40,249 nt of DNA, from positions 1 through 40,249 of the forward strand of contig CANNQU010000027.1 of the NCBI GenBank assembly GCA_947507965.1, written 5' to 3'. Both the position numbers and the translations under genes were made by a program. The stretch's first letter is position 1, and each line of letters opens with the position of its first letter. This document shows, piece by piece, positions 10,329-18,345 of this stretch. The notes beneath the pieces were generated by a model. That model had not been told where the DNA came from and did not search any database. It saw only the letters and a list, made by a program, of their open reading frames with translations. The stretch is from Bacteroidota bacterium (GTDB taxonomy: Bacteria > Bacteroidota > Bacteroidia > UKL13-3).

Positions 10329-10719
10329 AATGTTAAATTTAGTGTACTTCATACCCGATTGGTTTTTAAAATTACCCGCTAATTCACTTAGCAGCGTTAC
10401 CAATTAAAAATCGTATCCAATCTACACGACTCATACAATTTAGATAAAGCTTCACTATTATCGTAGTTCTATTAGTACTTTATTCATTATACGCCTTCAC
10501 TTCTTTTGAATGGTATGTTAGGTTACCTCAGCCTACAATGAATACAAAAAGAAATTAATTCAAACCCGGTTTAATCTAGAGAAAAGGAAGAACCCTTTTA
10601 GGTTAGACACTCAAACCCAAACCTCGTCTAGCATGGCTGAAACAGACACAAAACAGAAGCAGCCAACAGGGGAGCTGAAAACTGTAAAGAGTAAGCAATT
10701 CGTTAAATTATCATCTAAA

Positions 10720-11217
10720 ATGGAAAACAAAAAAATAAAACTATTTGCCGTACTCTTGTTGGGCTTAGGTCTAACCGGTTTACAGGCACAGCAGGCCATC
10801 CCTTCTGCTGGGGGTGATGCCTTCGGGAGCGGAGGATCGGCGAGTTACTCTTTTGGACAAGTGGCTTTTTACACCCACGGTGGTGCTACAGGCATGGAGG
10901 CTCAAGGAGTACAACAACCCTATGAGATTTTTGTTGTTTTAGGATTGGATCATGCCAGTGGTATCAATTTATCATTAACTGCTTACCCCAACCCCACAAC
11001 CGATTTCTTAAACCTACGCGTTGAATATGATACCCATCCGGATTTATCATACCAACTTTTCGACATTAACGGTAAACTTTTAGACAATCGACCTATAAAA
11101 GGCAATGAAACATCAATTGCCATGAGCCATTATTCATCGGGAACCTACCTAATAAAAGTAATCCAAAACAACCAAGAAGTAAAATCATTCAAAATCATAA
11201 AAAACCAATCGTTATGA
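10720..11217 (+). CDS. Small T9SS type A sorting-domain protein
   Basis: I place the start at 10720, where MENKKIKLFAVLLLGLGLTGLQAQ forms a signal peptide; the ATG at 10633 would add 29 polar residues in front. The 165-residue product has a short glycine/serine-rich mature part (GGDAFGSGGSASYSFGQV and VQQPYEIFV) and a C-terminal type A sorting domain of about 75 residues with the marks YPNPTTDFLNL, a GTYLIKV strand and the closing KSFKIIK. Such domains direct outer-membrane export by the type IX system and are removed by PorU. The stop overlaps the next start (ATGA at 11214-11217), so translation is coupled to the collagen-like gene. Confidence 0.88.
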   Translation: MENKKIKLFAVLLLGLGLTGLQAQQAIPSAGGDAFGSGGSASYSFGQVAFYTHGGATGMEAQGVQQPYEIFVVLGLDHASGINLSLTAYPNPTTDFLNLRVEYDTHPDLSYQLFDINGKLLDNRPIKGNETSIAMSHYSSGTYLIKVIQNNQEVKSFKIIKNQSL

Positions 11218-13082
11218 AAAATTTAATTACACTACTAATCGCAGTCATCGTAACTGCCGGTGTGTTTGCTCAAGCACCTCAAAAAATGAGCTATCAAGCG
11301 GTTATTCGTAACAGCAACAGTGCGCTGGTAACATCTAAAACGGTGGGAATGCGTATTAGCATTTTGCAAGGTACAGCCACAGGAACTTCTGTTTATTCAG
11401 AAATACAAAAGCCAATGACCAACGTCAATGGTTTGGTAAGCATTGAAATTGGTTCTGGCTCAAATCAAGAAGGGGTTTTCTCCGCTATCAATTGGGGAGC
11501 AGGACCTTATTTCGTTAAAACAGAAACAGATCCATTGGGTGGAACGGCCTATTCTATTTCAGGTACGAGTCAGTTTATGAGTGTGCCCTATGCACTATTC
11601 GCTGCCAATACAACACCTGGACCTGCTGGAGCACAAGGTATTCAAGGCGTAAAAGGAGATATCGGCCCTCAAGGTGCAAAAGGTGAAACGGGCCTACAAG
11701 GAGATCAAGGTGCAATAGGATTAACAGGTGCAACAGGCGCAACGGGTGCAACCGGATTAACAGGTGCAACAGGTGCAACGGGAGCAACAGGGGCCCAAGG
11801 AGTTCGCGGAAATAATGGAAATCAAGGTCCTCAAGGGGATATCGGGTTCACCGGACCACAGGGAATTCAAGGCATTCAAGGTAGCCAAGGATTGACTGGC
11901 GACAAAGGACTTGCTGGTGCTCAAGGAATTCAGGGCTTACAAGGCGACATAGGCCAAACAGGTCCTCAAGGTATTATTGGTTTAACAGGTGATATTGGCC
12001 CAATTGGGCCTCAAGGTATCGCGGGCGTCATTGGAGCAACAGGAATTCAAGGATTACAAGGCCCACAAGGTGATATTGGAATGATGGGACCTCAAGGCCT
12101 ACAAGGAATACAAGGTGATATTGGTGCTACCGGTGCTACTGGCCCACAAGGCCCTCAAGGTGATATAGGTGCTACTGGTGTTGCAGGTCCTCAGGGAATT
12201 CAAGGTATTATTGGAGCCACTGGCCCACAAGGCCCTCAAGGTGATATTGGTGCTACCGGCGTTGCAGGTCCTCAGGGAATTCAAGGTTTACAAGGCGATA
12301 TAGGAGCTACTGGTGCTGCTGGCCCACAAGGTGTTCAAGGTGATATTGGTGCTACCGGTATTCAAGGAATCCAAGGCGACATAGGAGCTACTGGCCCTCA
12401 GGGAATTCAAGGCGACATAGGAATTCAAGGAATCGCAGGTGTTATTGGAGCCACAGGCCCACAAGGAATTCAGGGAATTCAAGGTGATATTGGTGCTACC
12501 GGCGTTGCAGGTCCTCAGGGAATTCAAGGTTTACAAGGCGATATAGGAGCTACCGGTGCTACTGGCCCACAAGGTGTTCAAGGTGATATTGGTGCTACCG
12601 GTATTCAAGGTGCTACTGGCCCAGCTGGAACATATACTGCTGGAGATGGTATTGACATTTCAAGTGGAATAATAAGCACTATCGCGAAAGAATATTTTAT
12701 GGGTTATTTAGGTGCTGGTGCAAGCAACACGCAAACCATTTCGAGTTCAACTATTGGCAGCGGAATTACGCTTTCAAGTAATCAAATAACATTACATGCC
12801 GGAAAAGTTTATGAACTTACCGCTACATTTATGGCTTATAATTTGGATGAAACAAGTATCTATAGCTATCTATTTTATAATGTCACAGGATCTGTGGCAT
12901 TAGGTTCAAATGTATATTATGGTGATCCTAATGGAGGCACCAAAATTGCAAATTACACAACACAAAGTATAACCCTGTTGGTTGCACCTACATCAACGAT
13001 GATCGTAGAATTGCAAGAAACCTCTTCAAATACCATTAAACCTGCCCTTAGCGGTAACATCGTGGTAAGACAAATAAATTAA
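11214..13082 (+). CDS. Collagen-repeat fibre protein with MSYQAVIR-type N-terminal domain
   Basis: The 622-residue protein has a signal peptide (MKNLITLLIAVIVTAGVFAQ), a roughly 110-residue beta domain (from PQKMSYQAVIRNSN to QFMSVPYALFAAN) common at the N-terminus of Bacteroidota exported proteins, then about 112 Gly-X-Y triplets (residues 136-472; PQG, IQG, DIG, ATG), and a C-terminal globular domain of about 145 residues resembling C1q/TNF or BclA-type jelly rolls, ending in ALSGNIVVRQIN. The layout suggests a stalk with a trimeric tip. There is no T9SS sorting domain, unlike its partner at 10720, whose stop it overlaps. A strong terminator follows. The triplet region is repetitive at DNA level and may vary in length. 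Confidence 0.9.
   Translation: MKNLITLLIAVIVTAGVFAQAPQKMSYQAVIRNSNSALVTSKTVGMRISILQGTATGTSVYSEIQKPMTNVNGLVSIEIGSGSNQEGVFSAINWGAGPYFVKTETDPLGGTAYSISGTSQFMSVPYALFAANTTPGPAGAQGIQGVKGDIGPQGAKGETGLQGDQGAIGLTGATGATGATGLTGATGATGATGAQGVRGNNGNQGPQGDIGFTGPQGIQGIQGSQGLTGDKGLAGAQGIQGLQGDIGQTGPQGIIGLTGDIGPIGPQGIAGVIGATGIQGLQGPQGDIGMMGPQGLQGIQGDIGATGATGPQGPQGDIGATGVAGPQGIQGIIGATGPQGPQGDIGATGVAGPQGIQGLQGDIGATGAAGPQGVQGDIGATGIQGIQGDIGATGPQGIQGDIGIQGIAGVIGATGPQGIQGIQGDIGATGVAGPQGIQGLQGDIGATGATGPQGVQGDIGATGIQGATGPAGTYTAGDGIDISSGIISTIAKEYFMGYLGAGASNTQTISSSTIGSGITLSSNQITLHAGKVYELTATFMAYNLDETSIYSYLFYNVTGSVALGSNVYYGDPNGGTKIANYTTQSITLLVAPTSTMIVELQETSSNTIKPALSGNIVVRQIN
12236..12610 (+). repeat. Near-identical direct repeats within the collagen region
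   Basis: Bases 12236-12367 recur at 12479-12610, an offset of 243 bases, with only two mismatches in 132. A shorter related copy starts near 12157, 81 bases before the first. 81 bases equal nine Gly-X-Y triplets and 243 is three times 81, so the region looks built by duplication of an 81-base unit. Slippage or recombination here would change the stalk length in frame. Confidence 0.85.
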
Positions 13083-13101
13083 CCGACGCAGATAAATACG
13101 T

Positions 13102-13135
13102 AAATGCCTTGCCTAAAAAGCAAGGCATTTTTTTT
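13102..13135 (+). terminator. Rho-independent terminator of the T9SS/collagen pair
   Basis: AAATGCCTTGC (13102-13112) pairs perfectly with GCAAGGCATTT (13120-13130) around a seven-base loop, followed by a run of eight T (13128-13135). It lies 20 bases after the collagen-gene stop. Confidence 0.92.
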
Positions 13136-13431
13136 ATACTTCGCTTGAGGTTTATCATTAAACAAAAAGAAATTTGGAACTTTTCGGATTGACGAGAACG
13201 TTTTCCCCTGTTAAATTTATTTCATATGTAGGTTTCAAAAACCGATGGAAAGACTTTATTGATACGAAAAAGGTTTATTGCAAAATAATTTGAACAAAAT
13301 TTGTTTTTAACAATTGAAATGATAAAATTGCACTATTGATTTTTAGGCCAATTAGCAATTGTAGTTATCGGTTATGGTTATCCTTTCTCGAGCAACTCCA
13401 ATTACAACAACAGATTTAAAACTAAAACACC
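13136..13431. other. Upstream region of the AAA+ gene
   Basis: Nearly 300 bases without any frame. I see no exact TAnnTTTG box; a weak match is TATCCTTTC near 13380. The length suggests that regulatory DNA or a leader belongs to the AAA+ gene, but nothing specific can be named. Confidence 0.4.
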
Positions 13432-16044
13432 ATGAGTGAAGTAAATTACAAGTTTAAAGATATAAAGGTTTACGGGTCGAATGAATGGCTAGCAAACGAC
13501 GAGAAAAAGTACAGGGTAGTATTTGATGAAACAGAATGTTCGTTTATTTATTGTGAGCTATCCTTTTTTAATAAACTTTTTGATGAGAAAGATTGGGATC
13601 TGAAAATAAACTTAAAATGCTATGATAGCAAGAGCACCGAGATGTGCGACCTTCAAGTACAAAAACACATCGCTAAAGACGAGAACGTAGTGTTTGTGCG
13701 CGAAGGATGGGGCGTAAAAAAAATCGGAGGCTATTGGAAACGAGGAGCCTACCGCTGGGAAGCGTGGATGGATGGCGTTCTAATTGGATCTAAATCATTT
13801 TATATTGAAAAAGAAGGAGTCGTAAATGAACTTTCAAATCCTTATTTCCGAATCAAAAACATACGACTGTACGAAGGGCCAAATCAAAATGTCGATGAAT
13901 CGAAAAGAGTCTATTATGATTGTTTTAAACAATCGGAAACGCGTTATATTTGGTTAGAATTTCAGGCTGAAAATTTAGTAAAGAAATACGACTACTGGGC
14001 TTGCGAGCTTTTCTTTAACTTCAAAAATGATAATGGTCAACTCAAGGGAGGGGTTGAACGCCTGCTCTTTGTTTATAAAAACGACGATACCATTACCTGC
14101 ACCGTGGGATGGGGAAGCGATCATAAGGGAACATGGGGAGGAGACCAATACAGTATTGAGGTATTGTTTATGGATCAAATTGTTGCCGGTTATCATTTTG
14201 ATATTGGTGAAGAATTTATCGAAGCCAATGAAGATAGTTATGAACCCTTTGTACAACAATTGTTAGGAGGCGAGCCCCCGTCGGAGGATGAAGCCGCAAT
14301 ACCGGAAACCATGGATGTGGTGATGCAAAAAATGGATGAGTTGATTGGTTTGTCAACCATAAAAAATAAAATAAAAGAATACAGTAGCTATCTTAATTTT
14401 TTAAAAATACGGAAGGAGAAAGGATTCAATGATGATGACAAGATCAATCTACATTCCGTGTTCACTGGAAACCCCGGTACAGGCAAAACCACGGTGGCGT
14501 TGATGCTTGGAAAAATATATAAAAGCCTTGGATTACTAAGTAAGGGACACGTGCATGAGGTGGATAGGGCCGACTTGGTTGCCGAATATATTGGCCAAAC
14601 AGCACCAAAAGTAAAAGAAGCAATAAAAAAGGCAAAAGGTGGTATCTTGTTTATTGATGAAGCCTATGCACTCGCTCGTGCAGGCGATGATAACAAAGAT
14701 TTTGGGAAGGAAGTAATCGAAATTTTAATAAAAGAAATGAGTGATGGAGATGGAGATATCGCAATTATTGTTGCAGGCTATCCTGATGAGATGACCAATT
14801 TCTTAGGATCTAATCCAGGTTTGAAATCGCGATTTAATATGTATTTTGACTTCCCCGATTATCTGCCTCAAGAATTACAACTCATAGCACAATTTTGTAG
14901 TAAAAAAAGAAATGTTGTTCTCACCAAAGAAGCAGAAGCATTGCTTTACAAAAAATTAGTAGAAGCCTACCGTACGCGCACCCATACGTTCGGCAATGCG
15001 CGCTACGTAAATGCCTTAATGGATGAAGCAAAAATGAATCTGGGCCTGCGGGTTATGGCTTTACCAACGACCGAAGAAATAACCAAAGAGCAATTAATGA
15101 CTGTGGAATTGACGGATATTGAAAAAATATTTGCTTCGAAACAACGAACACTAGCCGACATCCCGGTAGATGAAGAACTGCTGAATGAATCGTTTAACCA
15201 ATTGAAAAGCATGATTGGGTTGAAAAGTGTAAAAAAGGAAATTGAAGAATTGGTGAAGTTGGTGAAGTTTTATCGTGAAATCGGGAAAGATGTGCGCCAA
15301 ACCTTTTCATTACATACCGTTTTCAAAGGCAGCCCCGGCACAGGTAAAACTACCGTTGCTCGAATCGTAGCACAGATATTTAAAGCACTGGGCATCCTAG
15401 AGAAAGGTCATCTGGTAGAAACTGACCGAACGGGTTTGGTGGCAAATTTTGTAGGACAAACAGCAACAAAAACAAGCGAGATCGTTGATAAGGCGATGGG
15501 GGGGGTACTGTTTATTGATGAGGCTTACTCCTTATCACAAGGTGGCGATTCGGACTTCGGAAGAGAGGCCGTGGAGACATTATTAAAAAGAATGGAAGAC
15601 CGAAGGGGCCAATTTATTGTGATTGCTGCCGGCTACACCGATAACATGAACTATTTCCTTGAGTTTAACCCTGGACTAAAATCAAGGTTCGACAGAGAAC
15701 TCGTTTTCGAGGATTTCACCCCCTCAGAATTAATGCAAATTGCTAGTTATCTACTCACCGACCAAGGATTAAAAATAACCCCGGAAGCAGAGGATCATCT
15801 AGAAAAGTATTTTACTCATGTTTTTGAAATAAAAGACAAATACTTTGGTAATGGCCGATTGGTGCGAAAGGTTCTTGAAGACCTGGTGAAATACCAAAAT
15901 CTACGACTTTCTCAACTTCCAGCGGCCAACCGCAACCCGGAAATGATGAAGGAAGTTATTTTAGAAGACACCCTTCATTTTAGCCTTGAAGAAGAACCGG
16001 CAAAAAACCAAGGAGGAAAAATTGGTTTTAGAGTGGTTGGCTAG
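13432..16044 (+). CDS. Double AAA+ ATPase (CbbX/SpoVK-like) with duplicated N-terminal domain
   Basis: The 870-residue protein carries two AAA+ modules of the CbbX/SpoVK/EccA clade. Module 1: Walker A GNPGTGKTT at 346-354, Walker B D409-E410, arginine segment NPGLKSRF. Module 2: Walker A GSPGTGKTT at 633-641, Walker B D696-E697, again NPGLKSRF. Both look active. The first 270 residues are beta-rich and form two copies of one domain (about 7-128 and 139-261): both open with a F-K/R-x-IKxY pattern, share a W-x-C/L-x-F/L-N stretch and a GWG segment, and close with DG/DQ-x-x-x-G-x-x-F-x-I. I do not recognise this domain. An acidic linker joins it to module 1. The clade remodels partner proteins (Rubisco activation, type VII secretion). 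No partner is evident here; the gene stands alone. Confidence 0.88.
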   Translation: MSEVNYKFKDIKVYGSNEWLANDEKKYRVVFDETECSFIYCELSFFNKLFDEKDWDLKINLKCYDSKSTEMCDLQVQKHIAKDENVVFVREGWGVKKIGGYWKRGAYRWEAWMDGVLIGSKSFYIEKEGVVNELSNPYFRIKNIRLYEGPNQNVDESKRVYYDCFKQSETRYIWLEFQAENLVKKYDYWACELFFNFKNDNGQLKGGVERLLFVYKNDDTITCTVGWGSDHKGTWGGDQYSIEVLFMDQIVAGYHFDIGEEFIEANEDSYEPFVQQLLGGEPPSEDEAAIPETMDVVMQKMDELIGLSTIKNKIKEYSSYLNFLKIRKEKGFNDDDKINLHSVFTGNPGTGKTTVALMLGKIYKSLGLLSKGHVHEVDRADLVAEYIGQTAPKVKEAIKKAKGGILFIDEAYALARAGDDNKDFGKEVIEILIKEMSDGDGDIAIIVAGYPDEMTNFLGSNPGLKSRFNMYFDFPDYLPQELQLIAQFCSKKRNVVLTKEAEALLYKKLVEAYRTRTHTFGNARYVNALMDEAKMNLGLRVMALPTTEEITKEQLMTVELTDIEKIFASKQRTLADIPVDEELLNESFNQLKSMIGLKSVKKEIEELVKLVKFYREIGKDVRQTFSLHTVFKGSPGTGKTTVARIVAQIFKALGILEKGHLVETDRTGLVANFVGQTATKTSEIVDKAMGGVLFIDEAYSLSQGGDSDFGREAVETLLKRMEDRRGQFIVIAAGYTDNMNYFLEFNPGLKSRFDRELVFEDFTPSELMQIASYLLTDQGLKITPEAEDHLEKYFTHVFEIKDKYFGNGRLVRKVLEDLVKYQNLRLSQLPAANRNPEMMKEVILEDTLHFSLEEEPAKNQGGKIGFRVVG

Positions 16045-16076
16045 AATGAAAATAACGAATTATTGTTAGCACCCTA

Positions 16077-16436
16077 TCAATATATTCCAAGGCTTAGCAT
16101 GACTAGAGTACAGGCTTCCATGAACGCTATTTTATTTGCCTTTAAAAGAGATGCAAATTCCTCATTCTCCGTGCCGGGGTTAAAAATTACGCGTCGTGGT
16201 TTTAGCTTTAAAATAGCCTCATAATATTTTTTCTGATTCAATGGATTCACATAAAGTGTTACCGTATCAACGTCAACTCCAGGAGGAACTAATTCCTCAA
16301 ATATGACCCCCAACACGGCTCCCTTTTTGGGGCTAACGGCAATTACCTGATGCCCGTTCGTAATTAATTTCAGTAATGCTTTATAAGCATATCGTTCGGG
16401 ATTGGTGCTGGCACCGATTAAGAGCGTAATAGGCAT
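16077..16436 (-). CDS. CoA-binding domain protein (YccU-like)
   Basis: A 119-residue single-domain Rossmann-fold protein. The start TLLIGASTNPERYAYKAL has the glycine-rich nucleotide loop of the CoA_binding family, and RRVIFNPGTENEEF is its second conserved strand-turn. The family resembles the CoA-binding part of succinyl-CoA synthetase alpha; its role is unknown, though some members bind CoA. It is somewhat shorter than E. coli YccU. It is convergent with the AAA+ gene and has its own promoter-like box at 16451-16458. Confidence 0.87.
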   Translation of the reverse strand: MPITLLIGASTNPERYAYKALLKLITNGHQVIAVSPKKGAVLGVIFEELVPPGVDVDTVTLYVNPLNQKKYYEAILKLKPRRVIFNPGTENEEFASLLKANKIAFMEACTLVMLSLGIY

Positions 16437-16450
16437 GGGATTTTTACAAA

Positions 16451-16458
16451 CGAAAATA
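16451..16458 (-). promoter_or_regulatory. Probable -7 element (TTCG variant) of the CoA-binding gene
   Basis: On the minus strand TATTTTCG ends 14 bases before the ATG at 16436, implying a leader of roughly ten bases. It matches TAnnTTCG. The divergent yidC promoter lies on the other side of the same gap. Confidence 0.4.
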
Positions 16459-16495
16459 AGGTTTTTGTTTGTATCATTATTTGCCCTATTTTAAC

Positions 16496-16503
16496 TAAAT
16501 TCG
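16496..16503 (+). promoter_or_regulatory. Probable -7 element (TTCG variant) of yidC
   Basis: TAAATTCG, the same octamer as before the ABC transporter gene, lies 30 bases upstream of the yidC ATG. TTTG runs occur upstream (16464-16471), but their spacing of about 24 bases is longer than the usual 19-21. Confidence 0.4.
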
Positions 16504-16533
16504 CAACCTTTTAAAAAACACACAAAATTTATT

Positions 16534-18345
16534 ATGGATAAAACCGCAAGGACGGGGTTATTACTTATCGGGTTATTGTTATTGGTTTACTTTTTTGTAA
16601 CCAACCCTTCCCGTAAGGATGTTGAAAATTATAACATTAAAAAAGATTCGATTGCTTTAAACAACAAAACAAAAGACGGTCCTGAAAAAAACGCTCCTGA
16701 AGTAATTGTAAAAACAGATCGTGACAACACCATTGCTTTAGACTCCCTAAAAGCAGCACAACTTGGCAATTTTGGCACGTTGGCGCAAGGCGTTAATGAA
16801 GAGTGTGTTGTAGAAAATGATTTGCTTAAAATCACCCTAAATACCAAAGGAGGAAGCATTATAAGTGTGGAGTTGAAGAAATTTCAACGTGCCGATAGCA
16901 CAAAACTTATTTTACTTGAAAAGGGAAATAATAACTTTAACATTTCATTCCCTTCAAAACAAGCACAAACCATCAACACAAGAGATTTGTACTTTACCGC
17001 TTCGGCCAAGCAGGGTGAATCGATTGCATTGACGGCTTCATTGGATTCAAATACGTATATCGTACAAACCTATAGCCTAAAAGAAGGCAGCTATTTAGTA
17101 GGTTACGATGTGAAATTCGAAGGGATGAACCGTGTAATAAACTCACAGTCATTACAGTTGGATTGGAGTGCACGTATACCCAAACAAGAAAAAACGTTGG
17201 AGCAGGAAATGCTTACAACCACCATCTGGTATAAACAGCCCGATACCGATGCCGATAATATTTCAGAAAGTAAAGAAACTACGGAGGACTTCCCATACAA
17301 CTTGAAATGGATTGGATTTAGACAAAGTTTTTTCAACTCCACCATCATTGCAGAGAAAGCATTTACAAACTCAAAAGTATCGGTAAAAAACATCAACGAA
17401 GGGAATTTCATAAAAGAGCTTTCCACCACGGCTTACCTTCCATTTAATGCAAATCAAACCAATAATAGTTATGCGTTGCAGTTTTATTTTGGCCCTAACG
17501 ATTACAACATTTTAAAAGCGCCTCATTTAGGAATGGAGAAAATGGTGAAGGTGGGTTGGGGTATTTTTGGATGGGTAAACTTATTTATTACGATTCCCAT
17601 TTTCGAATTCCTAAGTAAAAATATCACGAACTACGGTATTATCATCTTGCTCCTAACGCTAATCATTAAATTAGCGCTATTCCCCATGGTGTATGGATCG
17701 TATAAATCGATGGCGAAAATGAAAGTTTTAAAACCCGACATCGATTTGCTGAACGAAAAATTCAAAGACGATGCGCAACGACGCCAGCAGGAAACGATGA
17801 AACTGTACAAAAAAGCTGGGGTGAGCCCATTGGGAGGTTGCCTTCCGATGTTACTACAGCTGCCTTTTCTGATGTCGATGTTTCAATTTTTCCCATCCTG
17901 TATCGATTTAAGGCAACAAGGGTTTTGGTGGTGTAACGATTTATCTACCTATGATTCAATCTGGGATTTTGGAACAAAAATTCCTTTTTATGGCGATCAC
18001 GTAAGTTTATGGACTATTTTAATGACTTTGGTAACTTTAGCCATGACCTTTTGGAGTAACCAATTTAGTAATCAACCAAAAGAATATAAATGGATTGGGT
18101 ATGTAATGCCTGTTCTCTTTTTAGGTATATTTAATAATTATTCGGCAGGATTTTCTTACTATTCAACCATTGCAACAGCCATGACTTTAGGACAGCAGCT
18201 CATCGCCCGCCGACTCGTTGACGATAATAAACTATTAGCCAAAATAGAAGAAAACAGAAAACGCCCTGAGAGTCAAACCAAATCTGCATTCCAACGCCGA
18301 TTAGATGAAGCGATGAAGCAACAACAGCTTAGGAAGAAGAAATAG
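16534..18345 (+). CDS. yidC: Membrane protein insertase YidC
   Basis: The 603-residue protein has the layout of Gram-negative YidC: one N-terminal membrane segment (about 6-24), a large periplasmic beta domain to about residue 345, and a conserved C-terminal group of five membrane segments beginning near FITIPIFEFLS, with ITNYGIIILLLTLIIKLALFP, the cytosolic hairpin SMAKMKVLKPDI, and LGGCLPMLLQLPFLMSMFQFF. YidC inserts proteins into the inner membrane alone or with SecYEG. The C-terminus is basic (QQQLRKKK), which fits ribosome contact. It stands as a single gene, not next to rnpA or rpmH as in many other phyla. Confidence 0.96.
   Translation: MDKTARTGLLLIGLLLLVYFFVTNPSRKDVENYNIKKDSIALNNKTKDGPEKNAPEVIVKTDRDNTIALDSLKAAQLGNFGTLAQGVNEECVVENDLLKITLNTKGGSIISVELKKFQRADSTKLILLEKGNNNFNISFPSKQAQTINTRDLYFTASAKQGESIALTASLDSNTYIVQTYSLKEGSYLVGYDVKFEGMNRVINSQSLQLDWSARIPKQEKTLEQEMLTTTIWYKQPDTDADNISESKETTEDFPYNLKWIGFRQSFFNSTIIAEKAFTNSKVSVKNINEGNFIKELSTTAYLPFNANQTNNSYALQFYFGPNDYNILKAPHLGMEKMVKVGWGIFGWVNLFITIPIFEFLSKNITNYGIIILLLTLIIKLALFPMVYGSYKSMAKMKVLKPDIDLLNEKFKDDAQRRQQETMKLYKKAGVSPLGGCLPMLLQLPFLMSMFQFFPSCIDLRQQGFWWCNDLSTYDSIWDFGTKIPFYGDHVSLWTILMTLVTLAMTFWSNQFSNQPKEYKWIGYVMPVLFLGIFNNYSAGFSYYSTIATAMTLGQQLIARRLVDDNKLLAKIEENRKRPESQTKSAFQRRLDEAMKQQQLRKKK

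Follow-up and report, generated by a model that had tools for sequence, protein, structure and literature searches.

A duplicated Ig-like domain joined to a double AAA+ motor in Bacteroidota: a candidate dedicated chaperone

Within a 40,249-nucleotide stretch of Bacteroidota DNA (contig CANNQU010000027.1; this whole stretch is called the window here), one gene encodes a protein in which two copies of an Ig-like domain precede two AAA+ modules, an architecture denoted Ig2-D1-D2. In our opinion, the gene product is best explained as an AAA+ chaperone of two tiers that works in the cytoplasm, probably as a hexamer, and binds its client through the Ig pair, a reading that we hold to be reasonably likely. 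What is new is the duplicated domain together with the doubled motor; what is known is the clade of dedicated chaperones.

The first-pass annotation had put the gene forward as a candidate for an undescribed system, and part of that proposal stands. The duplicated domain has no family match, whereas the motor clade, the principle of its N-terminal domains and the ordinary Ig/FnIII-like fold were already known. Moreover, the protein is not a single oddity, as many Bacteroidota, and AAA-free and secreted-looking proteins, share the domain. A search of the open-access literature found no paper describing the Ig2-D1-D2 architecture; a SpoVK family ATPase is mentioned for another system in a part of one article (PMC11090510). 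We think that the branch is of interest for further research, since the clade is known for chaperones that each serve a single narrow task, but the clients of only a few have been found, and this branch has an unnamed domain that is easy to recognise and, in one of its lineages, a partner gene conserved in the operon. The search for clients is directly testable with trap mutants, and annotators gain a domain to define.

The gene and its product

The open reading frame is intact, with 870 codons plus a stop. Its parts, and a hairpin upstream of it, are the following.

13102 to 13130, both strands: terminator-like hairpin with a T-run, between the upstream collagen-like gene and the Ig2-D1-D2 gene
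13432 to 16044, plus strand: Ig2-D1-D2 double AAA+ ATPase of 870 aa; the genome holds a single full-length copy
13444 to 13815, plus strand: Ig-like domain A, residues 5-128 (predicted fold, profiles, conservation)
13840 to 14217, plus strand: Ig-like domain B, residues 137-262 (predicted fold, profiles, conservation)
14218 to 14331, plus strand: variable low-confidence linker, about residues 263-300 (conservation and pLDDT)
14332 to 15126, plus strand: AAA+ module D1, about residues 301-565, with Walker A K352, Walker B D409/E410, AGY 448-450, SRF 466-468 and FGNAR 520-524
15187 to 15966, plus strand: AAA+ module D2, about residues 586-845, with Walker A K639, Walker B D696/E697, AGY 733-735, SRF 751-753 and FGNGR 805-809

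A second match to the protein in the same genome is only partial (19.8 bits) and lies elsewhere, and no other protein of that genome carries the Ig-like domain at E ≤ 0.01. Mean column identity reaches 0.89 and 0.87 in the AAA cores and 0.81 in domain A, so that domain A is kept almost like the motors; the values are 0.69 for domain B, 0.72 and 0.66 for the AAA lids and 0.34 for the linker. Among 23 sequences, 44/123 columns of domain A and 28/123 of domain B are invariant. None of the 40 linker columns (261-300) is invariant, and pLDDT falls below 50 at residues 272-291. The predicted model of the full-length protein has a pTM of 0.38, and the relative placement of the Ig pair and the motors in it is unreliable.

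The duplicated Ig-like domain

That the N-terminal region holds two copies of one domain, as the annotation had claimed, is borne out by shuffles, profiles and matching predicted folds. The limits had been set at residues 7-128 and 139-261 and lie nearer to 5-128 and 137-262, about 125 aa for each copy. When residues 1-132 were aligned with residues 133-270, the BLOSUM62 local score was 69, above all of 2000 shuffles of the second half (mean 32, sd 5.9, maximum 62). Profile-profile comparison by hhalign with 23 own-family rows only was weak (probability 11.5%, E 0.0026) because the own-family profiles are shallow. With 50-row multi-family alignments, in which a few genomes were fetched twice, the probability rose to 98.4% (E 4.7e-15). 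Besides, profile A recovered 50/50 B domains and profile B 50/50 A domains at E < 1e-3 (Z set to 1000, filters off), and both halves matched a third group, formed by 16 domains of secreted-looking and long-form proteins, at 99.3% and 99.8%. AlphaFold2 predicts two eight-strand Ig/FnIII-like sandwiches (pLDDT 87.2, pTM 0.79); the halves are not different folds, and their strands pair eight to eight in order. As for the shared motifs, GWG is found where it had been placed, at residues 92-94 and 226-228. The proposed common opening Y-F-x-x-I does not hold for the first repeat, which opens Y-K-F-K-D-I-K-V-Y, and the strand that closes this repeat, GSKSFYI, has a spacer longer by one residue than that of its counterpart GYHFDI in the second repeat.

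A tree was built from 52 of the 116 domains and rooted by midpoint only. It brings all the A domains, 18 in number, together in one group (100/100), and the 18 B domains likewise make up a group of their own (100/99). Each group holds members of several families and of both classes sampled; therefore, the duplication is older than the spread of the Ig2 form.

The domain was found in no known sequence family. Pfam gave nothing significant on residues 1-280 of the window protein and its homologues, and sequence searches of the PDB returned no relative, either with a 23-sequence profile of the N-region (best E 0.96) or with a 40-domain profile (best E 0.12). A match of the N-region to DUF5595 was weak (4/23 members, best E 0.022). 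DUF3859 (PF12975) was also considered and rejected: it matched 1/40 domain sequences at E ≤ 0.1 (best 0.0016), and the protein with that sole match scores 18.2 bits against the curated 24. A genome search for DUF3859 gave 0/58 and was uninformative, as the controls were silent too, and no paper on this family was found by name in the open-access literature searched. Regarding a phage, plasmid or viral origin, the domain had no match in phages or plasmids, and of 23 pattern hits in IMG/VR none was confirmed; matches in a viral fold library were mostly general beta-rich phage and tail proteins.

By structure, Foldseek gave 346 matches to solved structures at E ≤ 1e-3 for the Ig/FnIII-like fold. 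The best structural matches are tandem RbmA and, with Z 10-11 over about 100 residues, domains from GH2 enzymes and AlkC as well as the carbohydrate-binding domain of Wzt, with structural matches (VIA) of Z 11.1, rmsd 2.4 and 103 aligned residues for a GH2 enzyme and Z 10.9, rmsd 2.9 and 106 aligned for AlkC. RbmA, a tandem FnIII biofilm protein of Vibrio cholerae, is the top Foldseek match to the Ig tandem (E 5.2e-9); it is a biofilm scaffold with 9% identity and a TM of 0.29 over the pair, so only a common fold is shared. Since the Ig/FnIII-like sandwich is so common, function cannot be read from it.

The AAA+ motors and their clade

The two CbbX/SpoVK-type AAA+ modules had been described as intact, and indeed Walker A, Walker B and SRF are complete in both. 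PF00004 (AAA) and PF17866 (AAA_lid_6) each match in two stretches, so that both modules show the combination of classical AAA core and AAA_lid_6 that defines the clade. In the 23 aligned sequences, the window's included, the Walker A lysines K352 and K639 are invariant, as are the Walker residues, GY, SRF and FGN(A/G)R of both modules, and every Ig2-D1-D2 protein listed has two complete motif sets. D1 carries a pore-loop-like YIGQTA, which we take to be a pore loop by role, and D2 a pore-loop-like FVGQTA. Among the listed Ig2-D1-D2 proteins, the leading residue of this motif is Y or F in D1; in D2 most have Y or F and a few have H.

Delerue et al. 2023 (PMC10659427) give three marks of the SpoVK/CbbX/EccA clade: the GY signature, a sensor-2 Arg, and an Asn that sits four residues upstream of the first Arg finger. 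The GY signature is present in sensor-1 (G449, Y450, G734 and Y735, invariant in 23/23). As for the Asn, N461 and N746 are invariant, but the spacing departs from that definition: four residues on, the window protein has Lys and its homologues vary, and the invariant Arg comes at +6. The equivalent region of CbbX reads NPGFRSR. The second Arg finger of the clade is present as R524 (FGNAR) and R809 (FGNGR), invariant in 23/23, and we presume that these two residues are the sensor-2 Arg. Among solved structures, chains of CbbX and EccA1 come closest to both modules. In the same part of the literature (PMC10659427), the N-terminal domains are described as varying widely across the clade, which is taken as indicative of substrate recruitment, and the characterised members as dedicated chaperones, with protease association not found there. 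The best reading is that Ig2-D1-D2 is a double-ring member of this dedicated-chaperone clade.

Comparison with known systems

Bacillus SpoVK shares with the window protein the clade, the best NCBIfam score, AAA_lid_6 and the GY signature. According to PMC10659427, SpoVK activates MurG in sporulation and needs its N-terminal region for client binding; this N-domain is short, with three strands and one helix, and reports of SpoVK are confined to sporulating Firmicutes. In contrast, the window protein has two AAA+ modules and two Ig-like domains, and its relatives are Bacteroidetes metagenome-assembled genomes (six named ones, one of them labelled Chitinophaga pinensis). It is not a SpoVK proper, and its 552.8 bits with the SpoVK model TIGR02881 pass the cut-off of 422.95 as the sum of two modules.

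CbbX structures 3zuh and 3syk are among the closest to both modules. Its client is RuBisCO, unlike what we find here: the window protein scores 453.1 with the CbbX model, under the cut-off of 459.25, and RuBisCO was rejected as a client because the large subunit (PF00016) occurs in 0/41 genomes including the window's, with controls found in 5/14. EccA/EccA1 of type VII secretion belongs to the same clade, and the score of 431 is under the TIGR03922 cut-off of 466.65. EccA carries TPRs, as stated in a section of PMC10659427, and these recall the TPR-like region of the long form treated below. A Streptomyces plasmid beta-helix protein of the clade also has two AAA+ modules, which pair with each other (100/97), apart from D1 and D2 of the Ig2-D1-D2 family; therefore, the double AAA arose separately there. 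The Ig-like domain was searched for in this protein and not found. Cdc48/p97 is a double-ring AAA+ with N-domains above D1; it differs from the window protein in AAA+ family and in N-domain, and the CDC48 model gives 42 bits.

Distribution, forms and history of the family

The gene was matched in 35/35 genomes of the window's family, its own included. In one of them (G023) it is split over two contigs, and in another (G021) the match is flagged with one stop, yet the open frame reads 867 aa. In other families, the full-length gene is found in 3/23 genomes, and one more has an AAA match only. A single-domain profile (A3) detects the domain in 89 of 395 sampled genomes of the window's class (22%) and in 99 of 391 of another Bacteroidota class (25%), counts that supersede the lower ones of a narrow profile, A2 (16/395 and 24/197). 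Counted as distinct proteins among the analysed loci, with Walker A motifs recognised by pattern, the architectures are distributed as follows.

Ig2 and two AAA: 74 proteins
Ig2 and one AAA: 4 proteins
Ig2 without AAA: 9 proteins, one cut by a contig end and six with a signal-like hydrophobic start on a crude hydropathy look
One Ig and three AAA: 24 proteins
One Ig and two recognised AAA: 2 proteins
One Ig and one recognised AAA: 4 proteins
One Ig without AAA: 1 protein

The form with three AAA modules, or long form, is TPR-like-Ig-D1-D2-D3; TPR-like matches precede the Ig in 2/3 scanned proteins, and in only one of the two is the Pfam cut-off passed, by a narrow margin. A tree of 45 AAA modules, from which the Methylobacterium hit H10 was left out for want of a usable ORF, joins the D1 modules of the long and double forms (100/98) and also their D2 modules (100/98), the D2 group including two single-AAA proteins; D3 stands apart. 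D1 and D2 of the two main forms are thus orthologous, which makes them one old family with an Ig-D1-D2 core. In L059, D1 was lost, since its single AAA is a D2, sister to that of L074. Some members extend this core, by another Ig domain, by a TPR-like region or by one more AAA+ module, and D1 was lost at least once.

The Ig pair behaves as a separable module, because AAA-free Ig2 and one-AAA forms exist. Ig2 proteins with neither AAA nor signal-like start occur in G606 and G834, and both genomes also carry an AAA form, which in G834 is truncated at a contig end. Two AAA-free Ig2 proteins of this kind, with the AAA form in the same genome, are L200:9767-10870 (367 aa), which has an extra C-terminal region without a Pfam match, and L202:5004-5858 (284 aa). 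A signal-peptide-like segment at or near the start, followed by one or two Ig-like domains, was seen in L064:9525-10361, L124:10417-11337, L125:8169-8996, L068:9112-11097 and L213:3491-4054. Secreted-looking and AAA-fused forms share a genome in G230, G376 and G136, and the secreted-looking homologues indicate that the domain is not tied to the chaperone task.

Neighbourhood of the gene

The annotation had seen no client next to the gene, and neighbourhood analysis across homologues agrees with it for the window's branch: there is no conserved neighbour around Ig2-D1-D2 genes beyond genus or small-group synteny. In a clustering of neighbours at 46 loci, the non-anchor cluster of widest spread, whose members look like general transport ATPases, is near 9 loci. 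In a Pfam tally over 90 of 95 neighbours (ORFs of at least 80 aa, without three neighbours of L122 and two fragments of L115), at most 5 share a family.

Just upstream in the window, at 10633-13082 on the plus strand, lies a gene for a 622-aa collagen-triple-repeat protein, itself preceded by one for a protein of 194 aa that carries a Por secretion tail. Across the 46 loci, neither of these proteins was in a cluster larger than two ORFs. The hairpin at 13102-13130 suggests, from its sequence, that the Ig2-D1-D2 gene is in a separate transcription unit; the terminator call is a consensus match, and 13000-16600 has 5 terminator-like sites against 3.1 expected by shuffles. A promoter pattern that we take to be Bacteroidetes-type matches the window once, within the gene and on the minus strand, which is below chance expectation. 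In one genus (f68/g177), the Ig2-D1-D2 gene comes after a block whose sequences resemble Pst, PhoU, phosphate-transporter and M61-peptidase genes and before a gene for a small protein with a membrane-anchor-like start. This arrangement is kept in that genus only (L061, L063, L116, L118, L120 and L121; partly L117, L119, L122 and L123).

The long-form branch and an ABC exporter

A different picture was obtained for 30 chosen, non-random single-Ig AAA loci (four from one genus). At 14 of them, genes for an ABC ATPase of about 240 aa and for a PF16949 permease of about 562 aa lie directly downstream on the same strand, with gaps of 3-141 bp. Upstream on the same strand is groEL at 10/30, and a GIN-like/PurE-like pair is on the other strand at 8/30, these genes and GroES being recognised from sequence. 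For the 14 exporter loci, the upstream side holds groEL in 7, GIN/PurE-like genes in 4 and other or missing sequence in 3. The Ig-AAA gene is within 8 kb of a PF16949 permease in 31 of the 38 long-form genomes listed with both, and in the other 7 the two are on different contigs. The order groES-groEL, single-Ig AAA, ABC ATPase and PF16949 permease is seen at L218:4733-11590, L220-L223, L211 and L234 (f56, class of G230), L234 showing groEL only; the L218-type arrangement is possibly a folding-plus-export operon. The one-Ig protein of L218 (7200-9494, 764 aa), which is among the four counted above with one recognised AAA and the one of them that was read through, has an intact first AAA and a degenerate second one with an AAA_lid_6 match.

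In the long-form branch, the exporter may be the most likely client or beneficiary. This proposal concerns that branch only, because PF16949 occurs in 0/56 genomes around the window (its own included, and 34 of the 56 from its family; control found in 1/14 genomes), which ruled out the exporter as client in the window's lineage, and because the permease is common in families without a listed Ig-AAA. Two f56 genomes, G202 and G348, have the permease with no Ig-AAA listed.

Proposed mechanism and alternative readings

In the mechanism that we propose, D1 and D2 would stack as hexameric rings, and the Ig pair, above D1 on the flexible linker, would bind a specific client or adaptor. ATP-driven pore loops would then thread, pull or partly unfold the client, whose fate would be activation, assembly or release, not degradation. 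By analogy, client binding by the duplicated domain would fit the variable recruiting N-domains of the clade. In the window's lineage, the client is encoded at no conserved place beside the gene and is neither RuBisCO nor the long-form ABC exporter. A broader and tentative idea, to which we give a rather small chance, is that these proteins are an undescribed family of dedicated chaperones of Bacteroidota with an Ig-D1-D2 core, which is constant in the window's family, and in which the Ig would be a portable client-recognition part, existing also as a free adaptor; in one branch, an operon of groESL, a TPR-like-Ig-triple AAA gene and the ABC exporter would be a folding-and-assembly line for the exporter.

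The family could also be an accessory factor that assembles or remodels ABC exporters, the window's version serving a different, unlinked one. Both the downstream ABC ATPase and permease at 14/30 loci, with groEL upstream at 7/14, and the adjacency in 31/38 listed genomes speak for this reading; yet we consider it unlikely, as PF16949 was not found in the 56 genomes around the window, many families have the permease with no Ig-AAA listed, and near Ig2-D1-D2 genes no exporter is conserved. Alternatively, although we consider this unlikely too, the role of the Ig domains could lie in oligomerisation or regulation. Tandem folds of the Ig/FnIII-like type are often involved in self-association or in binding sugars, and the fold matches to RbmA and the Wzt carbohydrate-binding domain are in line with this, as are the pore-loop-like residues of D1 and D2; however, the conservation of domain A and the AAA-free copies beside AAA forms fit a binding module at least as well. 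Very improbable, in our view, is an ATPase of an anti-phage or other conflict system. PADLOC does give weak matches through the AAA part (IetA 70.5 bits, TRIP13 45 bits), but they are confined to the general AAA core, and the NCBIfam IteA model scores 58 bits against a cut-off of 510. Moreover, presence in 35/35 family genomes is unlike a patchy defence gene, and the 25 families shown, of 131 in the 90-neighbour Pfam tally, include no defence family. A defence role was set aside on these scores and this presence.

Other SpoVK-like sequences

Near one full-length gene, two ORFs upstream (L115:10661-11871) resemble pieces of a broken extra SpoVK-like AAA protein. A Bacteroides finegoldii plasmid (L146:2443-4113) encodes a SpoVK-like protein with a single AAA and without the Ig-like domain, in which we presume, from the look of the sequence, a membrane-like N-terminal part and a TerB-like region.
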